Source of the DNA: Bryopsis sp. KO-2023
Lineage: Eukaryota > Chlorophyta > Ulvophyceae > Bryopsidales > Bryopsidaceae
Reading direction: 5' to 3'
Assembly: GCA_030272585.1 (NCBI GenBank)
Contig: BSYQ01000001.1
Location: 7,440,001-7,504,000 of the forward strand
DNA: 64,000 bases
The notes below the pieces were generated by a model that saw only the letters and a program-made list of their open reading frames with translations, was not told the DNA's origin and did no database searches. Shown here in pieces: positions 2,711-12,900 of this stretch (the first letter of the stretch is position 1; every line of letters starts with the position of its first letter). The position numbers and the translations under genes are program-made.

Positions 2711-2770
2711 ATGGATCGCAAAGCGCTCATCGTCCTGGCTGTACTTGCATACGTCAGCGAAGTCGGCGGC
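2711..2770 (+). other. signal peptide coding segment
   Basis: The first 20 codons give a basic start (MDRK), a hydrophobic core (ALIVLAVLAY) and a small-residue end (SEVGG) just before His. An upstream in-frame ATG at 2687 would add eight residues without removing the signal. Exact cleavage decides whether His is the mature N-terminus, as copper-brace enzymes need. Confidence 0.7.
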
Positions 2771-5700
2771 CACATCACGTTGAATTACCCACCGCCTCGA
2801 TCTCCTCTCGGTCAGTACCTCACCCGATTCACCACGGCCCAGTTTTCTGTGTGGGGTTGGATTTGAGCGTACAGGAAACACATTCTCTGCACTGGCGATG
2901 TGTAGATTTCCTGGACAATGTGAGGACGGCGGGGCTATGCGGGGAAGAGCAATCTGTTGCATTCAGCGACTCACATCTTTGGAGGAGGCCCGCAGTGTCT
3001 GATCCTCCAATCACTGAAGTGAAGGCCGCCAGCGAGTTGTCTGTTTCATGGTAAATAGATGTCCCAATTCCCCCCCCCCCACCCCCCACCCCTTCCAACC
3101 AACGAATTCCAAGAAAAAGAATGGAAAGTATTGATCAAAAGAAAGTCGAAACTCTCATCACCACATCGACTGGCTCATAAGAATCTGATCGTTAGTTCTG
3201 GCATTCGTCAGGAATCTGCATTATCCTCACCAAGGTGGATGGGCAATTGAATTATACAATGTCGTCGATGCCAACACTACCGAATTAGTGGCAGCATGGA
3301 ACAATCTCCTGTGCACAGCAGACGGCATTCAAAGGTAAAAATTCAGAGTTCTCACATCCACCCCTCCTTCACCCCCATCAAATTCAAAAAAAATAGTAGA
3401 TTTCGATGATTCGAAATCTGATCATCGGAAGATGCTTGCAAACCTGCACCATGTCTGCGAACCAGAAAAAACAAACAAACAGAATAACACAGAACGTTTG
3501 CAGGGCAGATCGCCTCCCACATCTGTGAGGTCGGGATCTGTTGCTTGCTGGTCCATCAGGACTTCATGAACTCACTGTATCCTGTTTTTTTATTATGCGT
3601 GAACTGAAACTTGCAGTATTTGGAGATTGTAACATCTGTTGCACATGGTCGTTTCCCATCGTAAATCTTGGGTGGCTTTGGCATTTTTGCGTGGCCACAG
3701 AGGAACTGCCGGTCATTCATTACAAAGCATTACTAATTCTTCTTTTCTTTTCTCTTTTTTCTCAGATCAGCAACGATTCAGCTCCCGAACATGACCTGCG
3801 ACAGCTGCTTTTTGAGATTCCTCCGTGAGGCAGGGGAATGGGGTGCTGGATATCGTTTCCACAGTTGTGCAAGCATCAACATCACCGAGACGGCAGATGA
3901 GTGTCAAGGCTGCTCTGGACATGGGACGTGCCAGGTAGACACCTCGGCGAGCAAAATCTCTGCTTTGATTTGAAAAAAAGTCCATACCTTTTCGCTTTTT
4001 GCAGTGATGTGTATTCCTCTGTACGCTTGGTATGCGATGAGCTCTTTTATCCGTTCAGGTGTTAGTTTTGAAAACGTATTTGACCTCATTTGCAATGCAT
4101 TTTTCAATGTGGTATTTCTTCTTTCCTTGGAAAAATAATGCCAGCGCATGGCTACATTGGAAGCGTCAATTATTGACGGATTGTCATATGTAGCTACAAA
4201 TCATTAAGTATCTTTTTGTTTTCAATGCACAAGATTATGATTTGATAAACATGAGATTGTTGATTTTGTGGTTTTCAGGATGGGGCATGTGTGTGCGACA
4301 ACAGCGAAGAAACTGGATTTTGGGAGGGTGTGTATTGTGAGCGGGAAAACGAATGCGATGAGGACAGTCATTGTGGAGTTTATGGGAAATGTGTCGACAC
4401 TCAGGTAGGTTTTCAAATAAAGAAAAAGTATTTGTTCTTCCCCCACCGTTTTTTTTTTCATTGCGTTTTGGAGTTCCACTGATGATGTCTTACATTAGCA
4501 CACCTGGGGTTGGGATTTTACTTTTCAATTTTTTCTCAAAAAAAACACTGTCGATTGCCCTTGAATCTGTCATACGTTTTCTTTTTCTGATAAAAAATGA
4601 GATCCCCACCAGTCAGTTTCCACCTTTATTTTTTATTCCAGTCAAATTATCAACATGCTTCTGACTGAATGCTGTTAATATTTTTCTGATAGGGTACCAC
4701 TCCTCCCCGAAAGCAGTGTTACTGTAAAGAGGGATTTTTTGGAGTGATGGGCAAGACCCCTGGTGGTATCCCTGTCAGACGATGCACCAGGGCGTCTGAT
4801 CTCGAATTGGGAAATCCAGAAAACTGGGAAAACGAATACACAAACAAGCGCTCTTCAACTCCCGATGGAAAAATGGATGTCTTCTGGAAGGTAAAAACGC
4901 AACTTCACGTTTTTTCTTTTAATGAGTTAAGTGTTTCACACATGGCAAAGACGAAAAAAAAAAATTAAGTTAAATCAAATAAGTGAATAACACCTTGGGG
5001 TCCAGTTGTGCGGAGCCAGGGTGGTTTTGCCATTGCCTTCAAATTGCAAGGAGACAATTTTCATGATTTTTAATAATTTTCATAAATGATGGTTGCCATA
5101 TTGGCTCAGATCGACGATGTCAACGAAAGCCCCGATTGGATCGAATTTGCCCTGAGAGTGAAAACGGACAACTGGGTAGCCGTCGGGTTTCGCCCGACAG
5201 AGATCGCAAATGGTAGGAAAAAAATCGCCCCACCCCAGTTTCCTTTGCAACAAACTTTCATTACCCCTACGTGCCAATTGTTGGACAAATTGCTCGCCGG
5301 AAAAAAGGCTCAGATTATTCATGTCATGTGTTTTACAACAGGTACGGAGGCTGTTCAATGCACTCCAGAGAGTGAGAGTGAGGGCGAGAGCGAAAGTGAA
5401 GGTGGATTGGAGGAGGGGTCAGCAGAGGGACCAGAGTCAACTCCTTCCGAACCCGAGTCCGAAGCAGGGGCTTTTGGATGCCCTTACATGGTGACAGACT
5501 CGTTTCAACTCAGAAACTGCCGTCAAACCCACATGCCAAAAAATAGCCATACTCCCTCCTTGTCCAGTTCATGTAGGATGCTCATTTTTGCATGACAATA
5601 ATAGCAACAGTTTTTTTTTTAGGTTGAGGGAGAACCTCTGAACACCTCTGCAACGCCACTGTACGAATCCAACTACTTGATGTTCATGCCATCCCTGGAG

Positions 5701-8700
5701 CCTGAAGCCCCACCACAGATGCTCACTGGAACCCCGCTGTTCAACTCCAGCATAATTGACTATGACAGCTGCACTGGTGAGGGCGAACCTGAGGGCGAGG
5801 GCGAACCTGGTAGCGAACCAAATGTGGAACCTGAGGGAGAGTCTGAGGATACAGGCAGCGGTACCCCTTGCAACCATACCTACCCTGAAACTGAATCAGA
5901 GGTGGAAACTGATGCTGAAACGGCCCCGATGGTGACCAGTCTTGGGGATTTTTACGGAGAGGGAGCCTGTAGGCATCAAGTGGTGCCAGACACAGCCCAT
6001 GCGATGATCAACCAAGATATAGTTGTGGGTTATGCTCGTTCGGGTTCGTTCCGGGTGGTGGATTCTTTCACCCCGAGTCGGGCCAGGCCGCTTCCTGATG
6101 TGTACTTCGGGGGAAGGGATGATATTTTGGATGCGGTTGGCACGGAATCCGACGATGGCTACACGTTGCTCAAGTACAGGAGAAGTCTGAGGACGGAAGA
6201 TAGCTTTGGCGATTACTGCATTTACGATGTGCGATGAGGGTACATCCATGTGTTTGTTTTTTGTCGAGTTTAGCAAACTTCCAACCTTGTGGCAACGGCT
6301 CAGTTTTTTTTCATTTTGAGAGTTTTCTGGAAAGTGCCGAGAAGTTTGATTGGGTTTAGATGAGTGAAATCTTGCCTGATGTTTTTTTTTGGGGGGGTAG
6401 TGCCATGATGCATCAATGTGGATGGGGTGGTTTTGGCTGACACCTCGTTTTCTTGGCTTTCTTGTGCAGACCACCGGATACACCTTGATCTATGCGTACG
6501 GACAAACCTCACCGAATGTCCAGCACGATGCTCCATCATCCCTGGAAGTGAATTCGGTGAGCGACACCGATTTCTACAAGCCGGACGAGCTCAAATTTCA
6601 CGGGGGTGGAATCAACTGCCAGGGCCAGGCCACCAGCTACGATGGCAGAGGGAGCTTCGGGATGGTCAACTTTTTCAAGGAAGATGGGGACGCTGATTGC
6701 CAGCAGTCGACCCGAGATGGATTCGATTGCATGTTCGAAGTACAGAGCACTGGGTACTTCATCCATTATAGAATACTGCCTGCGGAAACCTCGGGTCGAA
6801 GATTGAAACAGCAAGCTGGTAGAATCAAGATGGCGGGAGAAGCACAGTCCACAGGTCCGTCGAATGGGGAACTCTGGAGTGCTTATCATCGAAAAAAGAA
6901 ATGCGTATAAATGATCACTGAAATATAGGAAGGCCAATGGCAGCCTTCAGAGTTTTTGTCACGAACAACATGGAAAGGTGGTGGGGTGTCTGGTTTTGAC
7001 ACCCCATCTTGTGGAAATCGAATCTCAAGTGTTGAGGACAGCGGTGTGTGTGGATCAGGTTATGCTGCTCTAGCTTTCAGTCCTCGTGCTGGCATGGTTG
7101 GAGCCACTGCTGTGATTGGCAGTGTGACATCGGATGGGGAGGCCACCATCAAGACCTACTACCTGGGGGCCCAGACGACCAGCGGAGTGTCCTCCACCAG
7201 CCCAAACATAGCTTTCGAAATCGAAGATATGAGCGTCGAAGAGACAGCAGATGGTCGAACAATCATCGAGTTCACAAGGTGGGCAATCATCTATACCTGT
7301 GTTAGATTCTTCTTTCTCCCAGGAAAAAATAAAAAAAAAGTTTATGAAGGAGTTGAAATCAATGGCTTTTACCAGTGAAGAATAGAACTTTTGAGTTTTT
7401 GTTTCAGTCTTTGTAAACGAATGTTTTTTCGAACAAGCAATCGAACAAAAAATTGATTTGCATTGGTACAGACGACAAAAAAATTGGAACAGATTTTTCA
7501 TGCTGTGGGCAGTTTTCTTCAATGTGTGTGTCGCACCATCAGAAACAAGAAAGATCGTTTTGTTTTGGTTTTGATGGGGTTTTAATGAACTGTTTTTATG
7601 GATGCAGAACTTTTGATGATGACTTCAAGGTCACGGACGAACACAACGTATTGGTAGCCTGGTCGAACAGCGAAACCCCACAAAACCACAGGAGCAATCG
7701 TGCACTCATCGTATTCACACCAGGGAACACCCCGGTTGCCGTGAATGTATCCATCGAGGAAATCAAAAGGTTTCACACCATTCACGGCACTTTGATGATC
7801 ATCGGCTGGGGGGTGCTGCTCCCTCTCGGGGTGGTCATTGCGAGAGGGTTCAGGGACAGAGACCCCCTCTGGTTTCAGCTTCACAGAGGAATTCAGATGT
7901 TTGGAATTTCTCTGGCGTTTGTCGCTTGGGTCATCGCGATGGTGAAGTTCGAAACCCCTAAGGAGTTGCATCACAGGTTCGCAGGATCCACTTTCAGCAA
8001 AAAGCAAAAACGTGTGAAAAATACACACATTTCTGACAAAAAACATGGTTGGCACTACCATTCCCTGTTGCTGGTGCATCAATTCGCTAAAATTAGTTTT
8101 TTCCTGCTGGGATTTCAAAGTCATTCCACCTGCTCTTTGTTTTTGGAAAAGGGGGGGGGGATGAGTAAACTTATTATTTTTGGGGGGAAGAAATCTTATC
8201 TGATCGAAAATTTGATTTTCTCATTTCTTTTTCCAGGCCACTTGGATATACAGTAATGGCTATCGGACTGTTTCAGCCGTTGAACGCTTTCATCAGACCG
8301 CACAAGGGAACCACATTCAGATGCGTCTGGGAGTGGATTCATCTGGGACTGGGAAGATCGGCACTCATATTGTCGGTGGTCACCATCTTCTATGGCTTGG
8401 ATCGGGTCGATGAACTCTATGCCACAGGAGTGAAATATACAGTGATCTATGCTGTCATCGTCGCTGTTATGACCATGGTGAGGTTACTTTTTCTCATTGC
8501 ATTTTGTTGTTTTTTTCCGGCCATTATGCCTTTTCTGTGTCTCCTGTGCATCTAGAAAAAGGAAAATTTTTGCTGCACCCTAAGCGAGTTTCAAACAGTT
8601 TTTTACTAGGTTATATAGTAAAATTAGTGAATAAAATAAAAATAAATTATCAAAGCTGAAATTTTCATTGGGTTCGATAATAATTCAACTGGCTATTCCA

Positions 8701-9030
8701 GAAAATTTGAAGATTTCTCGAGCTGTAATTCATTTTTATTAAAAAAAAAAGCAAACAACAACAAACTTAAGTATTCGACTCAGAAATCGAACAAAACCCC
8801 ACATGTCAAGCTTCCCTAGAGTGCTGCCCACTGAACATTATTTTGTTTTTCCTTCGTCTTTTTTTTTCCAGCTCTACATCTGTGCTGAATATCGCCGAGT
8901 AGCGGATTCAAGAAACGCCGACGAGTCTGCTGCTTACAATGGCCCAGAACATCAATCTGACAAAGAACCTCCCTCCATTGAGCTCAAAAAACTGACAGAA
9001 GACGATGAGGCCTCACAAGACAAAGTCTAA
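2711..9030 (+). CDS. secreted N-terminal-His (LPMO/BIM1-like) + EGF + DOMON + DOMON + cytochrome b561 fusion
   Basis: Fifteen exons: 2711-2810, 2906-3050, 3212-3334, 3504-3524, 3766-3934, 4279-4404, 4693-4890, 5110-5212, 5342-5490, 5623-6228, 6470-6854, 6933-7278, 7608-7976, 8237-8477, 8872-9030; they sum to 1079 codons plus stop. Residues 1-20 are a signal peptide whose likely cleavage leaves His at the mature N-terminus (HITLNYPPPR). Residues 21-172 resemble copper-brace proteins (FLDNVRTAGLCG, HYPHQGGW, QLPNMTCDSC). Two EGF-like modules follow (about 173-260), then DOMON1 (about 285-580) split by a Glu/Ser/Pro/Gly insert. DOMON2 (about 600-860) contains GYAALAFSPRAGMVGA. A cytochrome b561 domain (about 880-1045) has candidate haem His near 883, 916, 945/946 and 982. 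The tail is cytosolic and acidic. DOMON-b561 proteins move electrons across membranes; feeding them to the N-terminal domain is inference. The exon 11/12 junction could instead be 6904/6929. Confidence 0.8.
3504..3524 (+). other. 21-nt microexon of the DOMON/b561 gene
   Basis: Bounded by TTTGCAG and GTGAGG. It keeps the frame (phase 2 in, phase 2 out) and joins the Trp-rich exon before it to the one starting LSATIQLPNM. Skipping it would remove seven residues without a frameshift. Confidence 0.6.
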
Positions 9031-9959
9031 CTCGTCAAATTTGTTTTTCATAGACTGGATCGGACTAGTCACAGTTCTTAAACAAAGTTTTTCTCTTGGA
9101 GGGCAGCCTGGGTTGGGAGGAGGGGGGGAAGGGATGAGGCAACCTCTTTCTTTTTTGGATGGTGGTGGGGGGGGGGGGGGGAAGTGAGATTTTCAATCAG
9201 AGGGAAAAGGTGGTCGGGAGGTGACCATTTGGCTTGTAAAAATGTTCAGAGTTGTCTGGTGGAGTTGTCCAATTTATTGATTGCATTACATCACAATATT
9301 CGTCTTTGATCTCAATTTTTTTCCCATCAATTTATCAATTTCTGTGAAAGCTGATTTTAGGCACACACATGAAGGGGTGGGCCACCAAAAAAACCCAAAC
9401 CCGAATCTCTCCTCTGCCAAGCAGGGTTGTTCCGTTGTGCCTCCATTACACTGGTCCCGTGCCGGTTAACAGTAATTTTTGGTAATGCTGCCCCCCTGAC
9501 TCACCCCTGAAAATCAAGAGTCTGTGCTCGGTTATGTTACACGCCAGGATACTGTTCGCCCGCATACGTAGTGAAAGGCGATCCAAAGCGTGAAATTCGT
9601 CTTCCAGGGGGCGAAAGATCCCTGGCACGACAAACAGGAAAATTAGTGGGCAGGGACACGACGACTCTTCATTCCATAAGCGTCCAGTCAAAAGCGCCAA
9701 AGTCCGTCTCTCCACACACCCAGGGGATGATTGAGACTGTTGTCATTGTTCCAATTTTGGGGTGGGTTTAGGTATTCTGTACTTCCGCAGGAATAGTGAA
9801 GCTCCCTCAACGCAACTCGACACGGTCCTGCCACAGGGATGTCTGGCCTTCGATAGCTTTGGCGCCTGTTCTTGTAAATAGACGAGTTCTTTGAGAAGGT
9901 TTGACGACTTCGGTTGGGGTTTCATTGGTGGTTTCCCTTGTGTCGGGGCTGATTAAGAA
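9031..9959. other. spacer between the b561 and RING genes
   Basis: Contains a poly-G run near 9169-9181 and T-rich stretches. No supported exon. Short frames near 9281 and 9571 lack family signals. The distal part probably carries the RING gene promoter. Confidence 0.4.
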
Positions 9960-12900
9960 ATGCCGGGCGACGAGGGTCCGAGTTGCCAGCAGTTGAGAGA
10001 AAATGAGCAAGGAAAGGGTGTGGGTGGTTCTGAGGAGCTGGAGTCCGACGATGACAGCAAGTAAGTCGGGAGCAAGGCGGGGGTGGATTGTTCGACGTCC
10101 CGTGTTTCGCGCTGTCGCCGAATACAGAAATAGCGGTTTCGGAGGATGTTTTATCTCGCTTCAGAGCAGCCCATGAAAAAGCGTCTGTCACGGTTGACGC
10201 CCGCGACGTTCGCAACTCCATTGATCTCTTCCCCTCTTTTGGGGTTCCTCCCTTCCGCGTGGCGTTCCCCACTCGCTGTGGTTTCTTGTATGTTTTTTGT
10301 CCTCTTACGTTTCGCGTGCAGAGTTTTTTTCGTTTCGGAGGTTGATTCTATCGTTCGCTCGAGCAACGTCGAGATCTTCCTTTGGGTTCTCCCCCACCTC
10401 ACTCTGTGGGAACTGTGGTGTGCAGGCTGCCATGTCTGGGAAAATTGAAGGAAGAGTTGACCTGTTCAATCTGTCTCGACATCTGCGTGAGGCCAAGCAC
10501 GACGCCTTGTGGTGCGTCCCTGCAAAATTCGGAATGGCTGAAACTTATCCTGCAGTTTCGTTCTGTTTTGGTGGTTTGTGTTGTTTTGTTTTATTTTTAG
10601 GTCCTTGTGTTTTGACACCATTCTGGGGTTGGGCACCCCCCCCCTTTTTTTTAGTGATAATAAAAATTAGTGTCAAGAGCTGCTTTCTGCTGCTGGTGTT
10701 TTCTCCCAGGCCATAATTTTTGCAGGAGGTGCTTGCGGGGAGCACTGCAGTATAGCATGAAGTGTCCCAAGTGCAGGGAAATGCTGCCTCCTGGTGAGTC
10801 AAAATTTTCATCCAGCAACACTGCAGCAGCAGCCATTGTGTTTTTTTGCCACATGCTGAATTTTAGATATTTCATTTTGTCGCACTTTATCTGACTATAT
10901 TCAGCTTCAGAACAAGCAATCTGAAATAAAAAACAAAAAACAGATTTTGAAGAATTAGGGATCTCTGGGGTTAGTCATAAGTGGACGGATGAACAGAAAT
11001 TCGTTGATATGTGTGGCTGATGGAGGGTTCTGTGCCAGGTTTTCCTATGAACATAAACACAGTTTTGTGGAACACCATCCAGTTGCTATTCCCAACTGTA
11101 TGCAGTGCCCCAGCTTCCCCTCCAGCTCAGGCTCCAGCTGCGCACAGAATAAGCGACCTTCTTGGATCAGAACAGCTCGAGGCTGAATTGGAGGTCTTGC
11201 AATTGGAGGGAGACAGGTATGATGCTGGATATGTAATAATTTAACACAAAATATATTGTTTTTGTTTCACTGCCAACGTTCTATGATGGTTTGATCCATT
11301 TTGGACGTAATTATGAAGCGTTTGGTCGACTCTTTGCTTTTGGTGTTGGTTCCAGTTTAGCAATGGATGGGTACGAGTCTTTGGATTTCCTCCTGTCCCG
11401 TTTGGACATTGCAGATCCGTATGGCAGACATGGAGCACCACCTCAGCCACAAAATGGAATGCCCTTTAACCCAGTTCAGGGGTCCCCACGTGTTCAGCCA
11501 AACCATCGAGGTATGACCCTATTGTTGCTGTCAAATTCTTCGCGAAAGCATAGCTGATTTGATTTTTGGAGCTGATCCCAGTTGTTTCAATGGGTAGGTC
11601 TCAATATGTTCGAGTGGGATGTTGACGCAGAACATCAAGCCAGGAGGCCTACCTACAGGGAGTTGTTGCTGTATGGCAGCCAGTCGCCAGACATGTACTC
11701 TTCAGCCAGATCTCTTGGGCGTCGGGTAAGTTCGTTTTCTGAAATTTAGCATTGCAGGTAAGTAAATGGACATAGGTTAACGGACAAGGCAGGCAAGTTT
11801 CCTAGAGTTTGATCCGTTGGGTTGATCAGTCTGACTCAGAAAAAAATAATGATCGCATTTTCTAGGGGAACAACAACAATAAGAAAGATATCGACTCTTA
11901 CTCCTGTTTATGGGTGCACTGGACAGTGGCAGCCAAGATATACTCACAGCCGAGGAGGCAATCCTCGTCCAAGCTTCATGGACTCTGCACCCCTCTACCC
12001 AGCAAACGGGATATACGTGCCAGACAGGCGGCACCCCCTCCGAGCCCGTCAAGAGCCATCGGCCTCCTCAGCCCATGAGGGAGCCCTGTCACCCGGCAGC
12101 TCAGTTGAATCTGGCCACGAAACCCGACCCTCTCGCTTCAACCGATCGAATTCGTTCGCCGAGTGGAGGAGCGGAGGTCCCCCCTTGGGACCCCCACCGA
12201 TGCATTCTCATAACGCCCCCCACAGAAACATCTTTTCTCCGTTTCACAGATTTCGAAATCCTGAACCTCATGATTCGCCTCGTGACTCTTTCGGTTCCCC
12301 ATTGTCCGTATCCCCAAATTCGGCCGTCCACAACGGGGAGCTCGATGCTCATCGTTACTTCGACGAGGAGGAATGGCTGGAACTGGCAACCGAATCTGAG
12401 CATTTGGATACCCCTCGTGCACGATCACCCAATTACCCGCCAGGGCCCCTCCCCCCCCTTCCGCGAATCGAGATCGTCGGTAGCTATGTGGGTGCAGAGG
12501 ACAGGGAAAACGTTGGTCGAAATGGGGTGGAAGAACGAGAAACCATCGATCTGGCTGAATACCAACTTATCGAGGGCATTGATGGTCCGAGAATCATTCC
12601 GAGGAGGCACAGGGGGGAGGAAGGGATGATGAGGGCGTCGGGTCCAAGCAGCCCGGCTCGTGATCTATCCCCTCGTTCGCAAGCTGATATCCAAAGACTG
12701 TTGTTGATGAGACCGGTGGAACATGCGAGCTATCATGACTGGCCCCCCTCGCTCGACAGGGACCGTGAGTATTTGATGTCGTTGCTTCATGATGGTGGAG
12801 GTCGAGGGGGTGGAGAGGGAAATGGATCGATGCCGTCTGGACGGGGTGGCCACAGGGAAAACAGGGGCGTACGAGAGCCGAGGTACGGTTCGGTACTGGG

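Follow-up and report, generated by a model that had tools for sequence, protein, structure and literature searches.

A predicted His-brace copper domain joined to a putative DOMON and cytochrome b561 relay in one Bryopsis protein

What is the function of a predicted secreted protein that begins with a copper-brace-like domain and ends with a putative transmembrane haem relay? Such a protein is encoded in the green alga Bryopsis sp. KO-2023 at positions 2711-9030 of the forward strand of a 64,000-nucleotide window (the whole stretch analysed; contig BSYQ01000001.1, positions 7,440,001 to 7,504,000), and the positions given below are those of the window unless another contig is named. The single gene consists of 14 exons, all joined in phase at GT-AG junctions, and yields a protein of 1030 residues with the domain order signal peptide, His-first copper-brace-like domain, two EGF-like modules, two DOMON domains and cytochrome b561. 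We propose, with a probability of roughly 0.48, that the protein is a membrane-anchored copper oxidoreductase that would be fed by cytosolic electrons via a covalent haem relay and would oxidize a polymer at the cell surface.

Is this domain order the property of one gene? The exons occupy 2711-2810, 2906-3050, 3212-3334, 3766-3934, 4279-4404, 4693-4890 and 5110-5212 (exons 1-7) and 5342-5490, 5623-6228, 6470-6854, 7059-7278, 7608-7976, 8237-8477 and 8872-9030 (exons 8-14). The start at 2711 and the stop at 9030 that were initially assigned to the gene agree with the spliced model. The initial annotation counted 15 exons, one more than the spliced model contains; the remainder of its description, in which a leader, a His-first Cys/His domain, EGF modules, two DOMONs and b561 belong to one gene, stands. 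A search of the 91 Mb genome with the N-terminal domain identified two further loci on contigs C3 and C13, whose genes were modelled from GT-AG junctions and similarity. The host is recognizable as an alga by 107 matches to chlorophyll a/b-binding proteins at the level of exons. The C3 gene (1293 residues, 7 exons) encodes three DOMONs and the C13 gene (1511 residues, 22 exons) four, both in the same domain order as the window gene, although some junctions of the C13 model are less sure within low-complexity inserts. Four intron positions in the copper/EGF/DOMON part, phase included, are common to all three genes. The window gene is one of three dispersed genes with a common architecture and no single oddity, and the view of it as a one-off was dropped.

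A gene model of this kind could also arise as an artefact if an adjacent gene for a secreted protein resembling lytic polysaccharide monooxygenases (LPMOs) had been merged with a gene for a CYBDOM, a protein with DOMON and b561 domains. Exons 8 and 9 are indeed less sure owing to an acidic low-complexity insert that breaks DOMON 1 at about 5373-5960. However, domain boundaries lie inside exon 4 (end of the copper domain and start of EGF module 1), exon 6 (EGF module 2 and start of DOMON 1), exon 10 (end of DOMON 1 and start of DOMON 2) and exon 12 (end of DOMON 2 and start of b561). A split into two genes would have to break up at least one of these exons or discard some; a chimera of two genes is therefore unlikely, and it was dropped on this exon-boundary argument. 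Furthermore, the domain order and the four intron positions are found again on C3 and C13, and the three spliced models are all free of internal stops. We therefore consider a merging artefact very improbable.

To which family does the N-terminal domain belong? The predicted leader (residues 1-20, 2711-2770, with a hydrophobic stretch at residues 5-24) ends in V-G-G, which conforms by eye to the -3/-1 rule for signal peptidase sites, and its cleavage is predicted to expose the His at residue 21 (HITLNYPPPR), as had been anticipated. A His also follows the leader in both paralogues, so a His after a predicted small-residue cleavage site is present in all three algal copies. The mature domain (residues 1-142, exons 1-4, 2771-3883) is recognized as an LPMO-like, SCE4755-like His-brace domain by NF043005, LPMO_10 and hhalign. 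Its predicted brace ligands are His1 (2771-2773), which is also the predicted mature N-terminus, and His88 (mature H68 in the motif LHYPHQGG, 3228-3230), and Phe154 (mature F134, 3857-3859) occupies the axial aromatic position. The NCBIfam profile NF043005 (SCE4755 family polysaccharide monooxygenase-like) matches 3/3 copies, the window domain at E 4.9e-8 and the best copy at E 1.6e-11 (28.4 bits and E 1.5e-6 for the full window protein). LPMO_10 also matches all three at E<=10 (window 0.0031, 18.6 bits; best 1.7e-4), and the BIM1-like profile PF20238 matches none of them at the same threshold. LPMOs and BIM1/X325 proteins had been named initially as holders of an N-terminal His brace, and a profile search of residues 21-172 against these families was suggested. 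Profile searches with the N-terminal domain gave a weak LPMO_10 match and a stronger NF043005 match without one to PF20238, which places the algal domain nearer to LPMOs and the SCE4755 family, and BIM1/X325 was dropped as the nearest family. Two genome-wide scans add little: LPMO_10 gave no match at E<=1 when exons were read apart, and PF20238 gave no match anywhere and is hence uninformative.

The bacterial SCE4755 relatives allow the putative copper site to be examined over a wider range of sequences. Among Myxococcota genomes reached via an MglA query, NF043005 was found in 3/5 chosen and 40/282 sampled genomes (the two sets overlap). From these, 31 domains were extracted, 30 of them from loci among 44 listed matches and one from the set of five, and a script picked as His1 the His closest to the start of the alignment. 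In all 31, the leader in front of His1 ends in Ala. Across the 34 sequences (3 algal and 31 bacterial), His1, a CG pair, the second His, one Asp, one Pro and three further Cys are invariant, and the two groups share the order of leader, His1, CG, second His, C-x-x-C and aromatic-x-x-C. They differ in that the second His is followed by Pro in the 31 bacteria and by Gln in the three algal copies (HP versus HQGG), and in that the aromatic residue three positions before the last Cys, present in 34/34, is Tyr in bacteria and Phe in algae; moreover, the algal domains are without the Lys and Pro that precede CG invariantly in the bacteria. Comparison of the 3 algal with the 31 bacterial domains by hhalign gave a probability of 97.9%, an E-value of 5e-13 for this single comparison and a score of 77.5, against a maximum of 21.5 in 200 column shuffles and 15.5 for the reversed alignment. 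The score remained at 65.6 after removal of the first ten columns, and the match is thus independent of the His1 motif. Based on these profile comparisons, the algal N-terminal domains are homologous to NF043005 but lie outside its equivalog, and SCE4755, an uncharacterized myxobacterial family, is the nearest family found. A fifth Cys of the algal copper domain (mature C96, in the exon at 3212-3334) is present in 3/3 algal copies and has no counterpart among the four invariant bacterial Cys.

At E<=10, LPMO_10 recognizes 29 of the 31 bacterial domains and PF20238 recognizes 20 (best 1.1e-9), which places the SCE4755 family between the two; of these profiles, the algal domains match LPMO_10 only. 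By our own pattern, 24 of the 31 bacterial proteins end in a Cys, a hydrophobic stretch and an Arg-rich tail, which suggests surface anchoring; these tails resemble MYXO-CTERM signals. None of the bacterial frames that were read by eye, without a domain search of the full frames, contained a visible DOMON or b561. Near the bacterial members, CxxCH motifs occur in 6/224 open reading frames, five of which are one similar frame of 178-179 residues in five loci. The bacterial alignment found no relative in viral contigs and none in plasmids, and the algal alignment found none in viral contigs or genome contigs and one chance match in plasmids.

Is the domain related to LPMOs of known structure? 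Searched against the PDB, the profile of 31 bacterial domains matched the AA15 enzyme 5msz (1.6e-6), followed by AA9 (4b5q), AA13 (4opb) and AA10 (4oy7). A profile of 12 bacterial domains alone matched 5msz at 4.9e-7, and the addition of the three algal sequences improved this value to 1.6e-10, which indicates that the algal domains draw the profile towards AA15. The ten best PDB matches of this combined profile (E up to 0.22) were all LPMO chains. By count along the printed chain of 5msz, the second-His column corresponds to residue 91 and the aromatic column to residue 184, and the excerpted text of PMC5823890 names His1 and His91 as copper ligands of TdAA15A (5msz) and Tyr184 as the axial residue. 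The AA15 enzyme also shares the C-x-x-C region with the algal domain, but the similarity is remote, and the axial residue is Tyr in TdAA15A and Phe in the algae. In the text of the TdAA15A paper, b561 is absent and DOMON appears only as an author's name. By profile and column correspondence, we place the N-terminal domain within the LPMO superfamily as a remote member. BIM1/X325 proteins (PF20238) resemble the algal protein in having an N-terminal His brace and a membrane tether, but the anchor of Bim1 is glycosylphosphatidylinositol, according to the excerpts of PMC10952591, whereas that of the algal protein is b561. The same excerpts include an Asp, the fourth ligand, in the X325 copper site, and the relation of this Asp to the one that is invariant in 34/34 sequences could not be placed.

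What could supply electrons to such a site? C-terminal to the copper domain, two EGF-like modules are recognized by their six-Cys pattern, the first at residues 169-199 (exons 4-5, 3902-4338) and the second at residues 205-252 (exons 5-6, 4354-4785; EGF_2 stretch 206-238). EGF_2 falls just under its cut-off of 22.1 bits on the spliced protein (3.4e-4, 21.3 bits), as it does on the C3 copy (22.0). Pfam DOMON (PF03351) matches the spliced protein at E 4.4e-28 in three stretches, which are read as two domains because DOMON 1 is interrupted. DOMON 1 (exons 6-10, 4816-6526, best stretch 498-584) has the predicted haem ligands Met499 (6004-6006) and His592 (6524-6526), and DOMON 2 (exons 10-12, 6718-7692) has Met714 (7094-7096) and His802 (7687-7689); the edges of both domains are approximate. 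In the three genes, 9/9 DOMONs have an early Met that is followed at a distance of 85-93 residues by a His, both chosen by eye from motifs. The b561 domain (PF03188, exons 12-14, 7756-8898) matches at E 0.0016 with 19.1 bits against a cut-off of 23, which the C3 paralogue passes (6e-7). Its four predicted haem His, at residues 834 (7783-7785), 867 (7882-7884), 897 (7972-7974) and 933 (8340-8342), recur with the spacing 33/30/36 in 3/3 copies, and a predicted cytosolic tail continues in open frame to a TAA stop (8899-9030). If every site were filled, the three proteins would hold 4, 5 and 6 haems.

These features are those of CYBDOMs such as Arabidopsis HYP1 and CRR and animal SDR2, which likewise combine an extracellular Met/His DOMON with a four-His b561. 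The available parts of PMC10784544 and PMC10784552 give M90/H174 (separation 84) as the DOMON pair of HYP1 and His 211/245/278/314 as its b561 set, describe the same ligand set in CRR, and report that HYP1 carried a current in oocytes that was lost on a double haem-His change. From the HYP1 residue numbers, its b561 spacing is 34/33/36 compared with 33/30/36 in the alga, and the Arg of the HYP1 ascorbate site, seven positions before the last b561 His, is kept in 3/3 copies. HYP1 and CRR are described as DOMON and b561 only, whereas the algal proteins add a copper domain, EGF modules and two to four DOMONs. A PDB search with the C3 DOMON-b561 stretch returned one chance match.

The number of DOMONs differs among the three genes, and C13 offers a possible reason. 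In the joined C13 loci L015 and L016, a pair of exons of 69 and 242 bases occurs twice (9251-9653 and 10369-10883), each pair encoding one DOMON unit, and the two units are 45% identical. This arrangement resembles a tandem duplication of exons, which would lengthen the putative haem relay. The genome contains 17 DOMON matches in all, with the three copper genes counted in. On contig C1 at 1.561-1.563 Mb (locus L019, about 4200-6130), a single open frame encodes two DOMONs and b561 without a copper domain and is thus an ordinary CYBDOM; further matches lie on contigs C25, C7 and C8 and at 8.03 Mb of C1, some of which adjoin b561-like segments.

How might the copper domain and the relay operate together? 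We infer copper and haem binding, the direction of electron flow and ascorbate as the donor from the predicted ligands and family relationships. The protein would be secreted and anchored in the membrane, and electrons from the cytosol, most likely from ascorbate, would enter the di-haem b561, cross the membrane and pass to the b-haems of the DOMONs, of which the window protein has two and the paralogues three or four. From there they would convert Cu(II) to Cu(I) in the N-terminal His-brace domain, which would be held on an EGF stalk, and Cu(I) may activate O2 or H2O2 to oxidize a glycan or another polymer at the cell surface. Homology and full ligand conservation support the central idea of the initial annotation, in which a His-brace copper domain is coupled to a DOMON/b561 relay of the ascorbate type. 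More tentatively, the protein may be a self-wired transmembrane LPMO in which cytosolic ascorbate drives the attached His-brace copper oxygenase through four to six haems. Cellobiose dehydrogenase (CDH) and LPMOs are separate secreted partners powered by sugar oxidation, and a pyrroloquinoline quinone dehydrogenase with a cytochrome domain reportedly also drives an LPMO (PMC5960967). As in the relay proposed here, a DOMON-like b-haem domain reduces the LPMO copper in the systems of CDH or AA8 cytochromes: in the portions of the papers available, CDH can donate electrons to LPMOs (PMC7924993) and bears a DOMON-like haem domain (PMC10784544). In contrast to the CDH/LPMO pair, the algal protein is one chain and would be fed through the membrane.

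Several observations weigh against a copper oxidoreductase that acts on a polymer. The window copy scores below the Pfam cut-off of LPMO_10 (18.6 versus 23 bits), and all three algal domains stay below the curated cut-off of NF043005 (33.2 bits for the window domain versus 75). In the PDB, neither the window domain by itself nor the three-sequence algal profile found a relative, and both returned chance matches only. The second-sphere motif N/Q/E-x-F/Y, given for LPMOs in the excerpted text of PMC6950343, is replaced by Y-x-F in 3/3 algal copies; in the bacteria the N/Q/E position is D in 21, C in 9 and E in 1, so that the motif occurs in 1/31. No carbohydrate-binding module was seen in the protein, and in the open-licence literature we found neither a substrate nor an activity reported for the bacterial SCE4755 proteins. 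On the relay side, a simple hydropathy scan (threshold above 1.6, no dedicated predictor) assigned the b561 part of the window copy four clear membrane segments, that of C3 two and that of C13 three, where five are expected, and the b561 topology is for this reason taken from the family; in addition, where the ascorbate site of HYP1 has an Asn, three positions before the last His, 3/3 copies have Glu. A partial Chitin_synth_2 match was also found in four bacterial controls and is uninformative on substrate.

The sequence does not settle the choice between an enzyme and a metal reductase. The main rival is a copper (or iron) reductase or uptake device, in which the brace would capture Cu(II), the relay would reduce it to Cu(I) and the product would be passed to a transporter with no polymer oxidation. 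As far as the sources were available, DOMON-b561 proteins are known ferric and cupric reductases (PMC10784544), Bim1 acts with the copper importer Ctr1 in copper uptake, and several X325 proteins are without polysaccharide activity (both PMC7924993). The PF20238 matches of 20/31 bacterial relatives point in the same direction, as does the absence of the second-sphere N/Q/E residue from 3/3 algal and 30/31 bacterial domains. However, no algal domain matches PF20238, the axial aromatic residue is LPMO-like, and the X325 Asp ligand could not be assigned a position. Furthermore, the genome also encodes the plain CYBDOM that lacks a brace domain and would do as a reductase, an indication that the copper domain serves for something over and above ordinary reduction. 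We consider the reductase reading somewhat unlikely.

Could the protein instead be a non-catalytic surface protein, in which the brace-like domain and the DOMONs bind sugars or adhere and electron transfer is vestigial? Adhesive proteins often contain EGF modules, and no activity of the protein is known. DOMONs can bind sugars, as stated in an excerpt of PMC10784544 that cites earlier work. However, the predicted copper and haem ligands are kept in 3/3 copies and 9/9 DOMONs even though the three copper domains share 47-65% identity, and mere binding would not require such conservation. We judge a purely adhesive role improbable.

The genes on either side of the copper gene are apparently unrelated to it. 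Upstream, at about 1060-1220, a gene fragment has a G-H-S-L-G serine-hydrolase motif and looks like an alpha/beta hydrolase, with a weak Esterase match under the cut-off (E 5.8e-4). Downstream, at about 10430-10800, hand-joined pieces encode a clear C3HC4 RING finger (E 1.4e-10).

Has this architecture been described? In the open-licence literature, neither LPMO, DOMON and cytochrome b561 together nor DOMON, b561, alga and EGF together were found; LPMO and b561 are reportedly mentioned together in a dust-mite transcriptome paper. The one paper found there to mention both LPMO_10 and DOMON (2019, PMC6950343) contains, in the part available, 'DOMON/EGF and LPMO_10' sequences on a basal branch of an LPMO profile tree, which share the LPMO_10, DOMON and EGF domain types with the algal proteins. 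That part gives no b561 or function for these sequences, and the word 'cytochrome' is absent from the text. The initial suggestion that the domain order is undescribed thus holds for the LPMO/DOMON/b561 trio, but the excerpted mention of LPMO_10 with DOMON/EGF qualifies it. The architecture is glimpsed, not described, in the open-licence literature: its parts are of known kinds, and their wiring is new.

What does this architecture mean for copper oxygenases and for CYBDOMs? It is still an open question from where LPMOs obtain their electrons in nature and by what means cells keep H2O2 chemistry from running away. With the brace domain and the relay in one chain, donor, stoichiometry and location are all set, and thus the reduction in vivo of a copper site of the His-brace type becomes directly testable. 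If the protein is a self-wired LPMO, its activity would be switched by the intracellular redox state, and its relay would have been lengthened by DOMON exon duplication. The finding also connects SCE4755, an uncharacterized bacterial family, with a likely role in redox chemistry, and it extends the DOMON-b561 proteins from metal reduction to the possible powering of a built-in enzyme.

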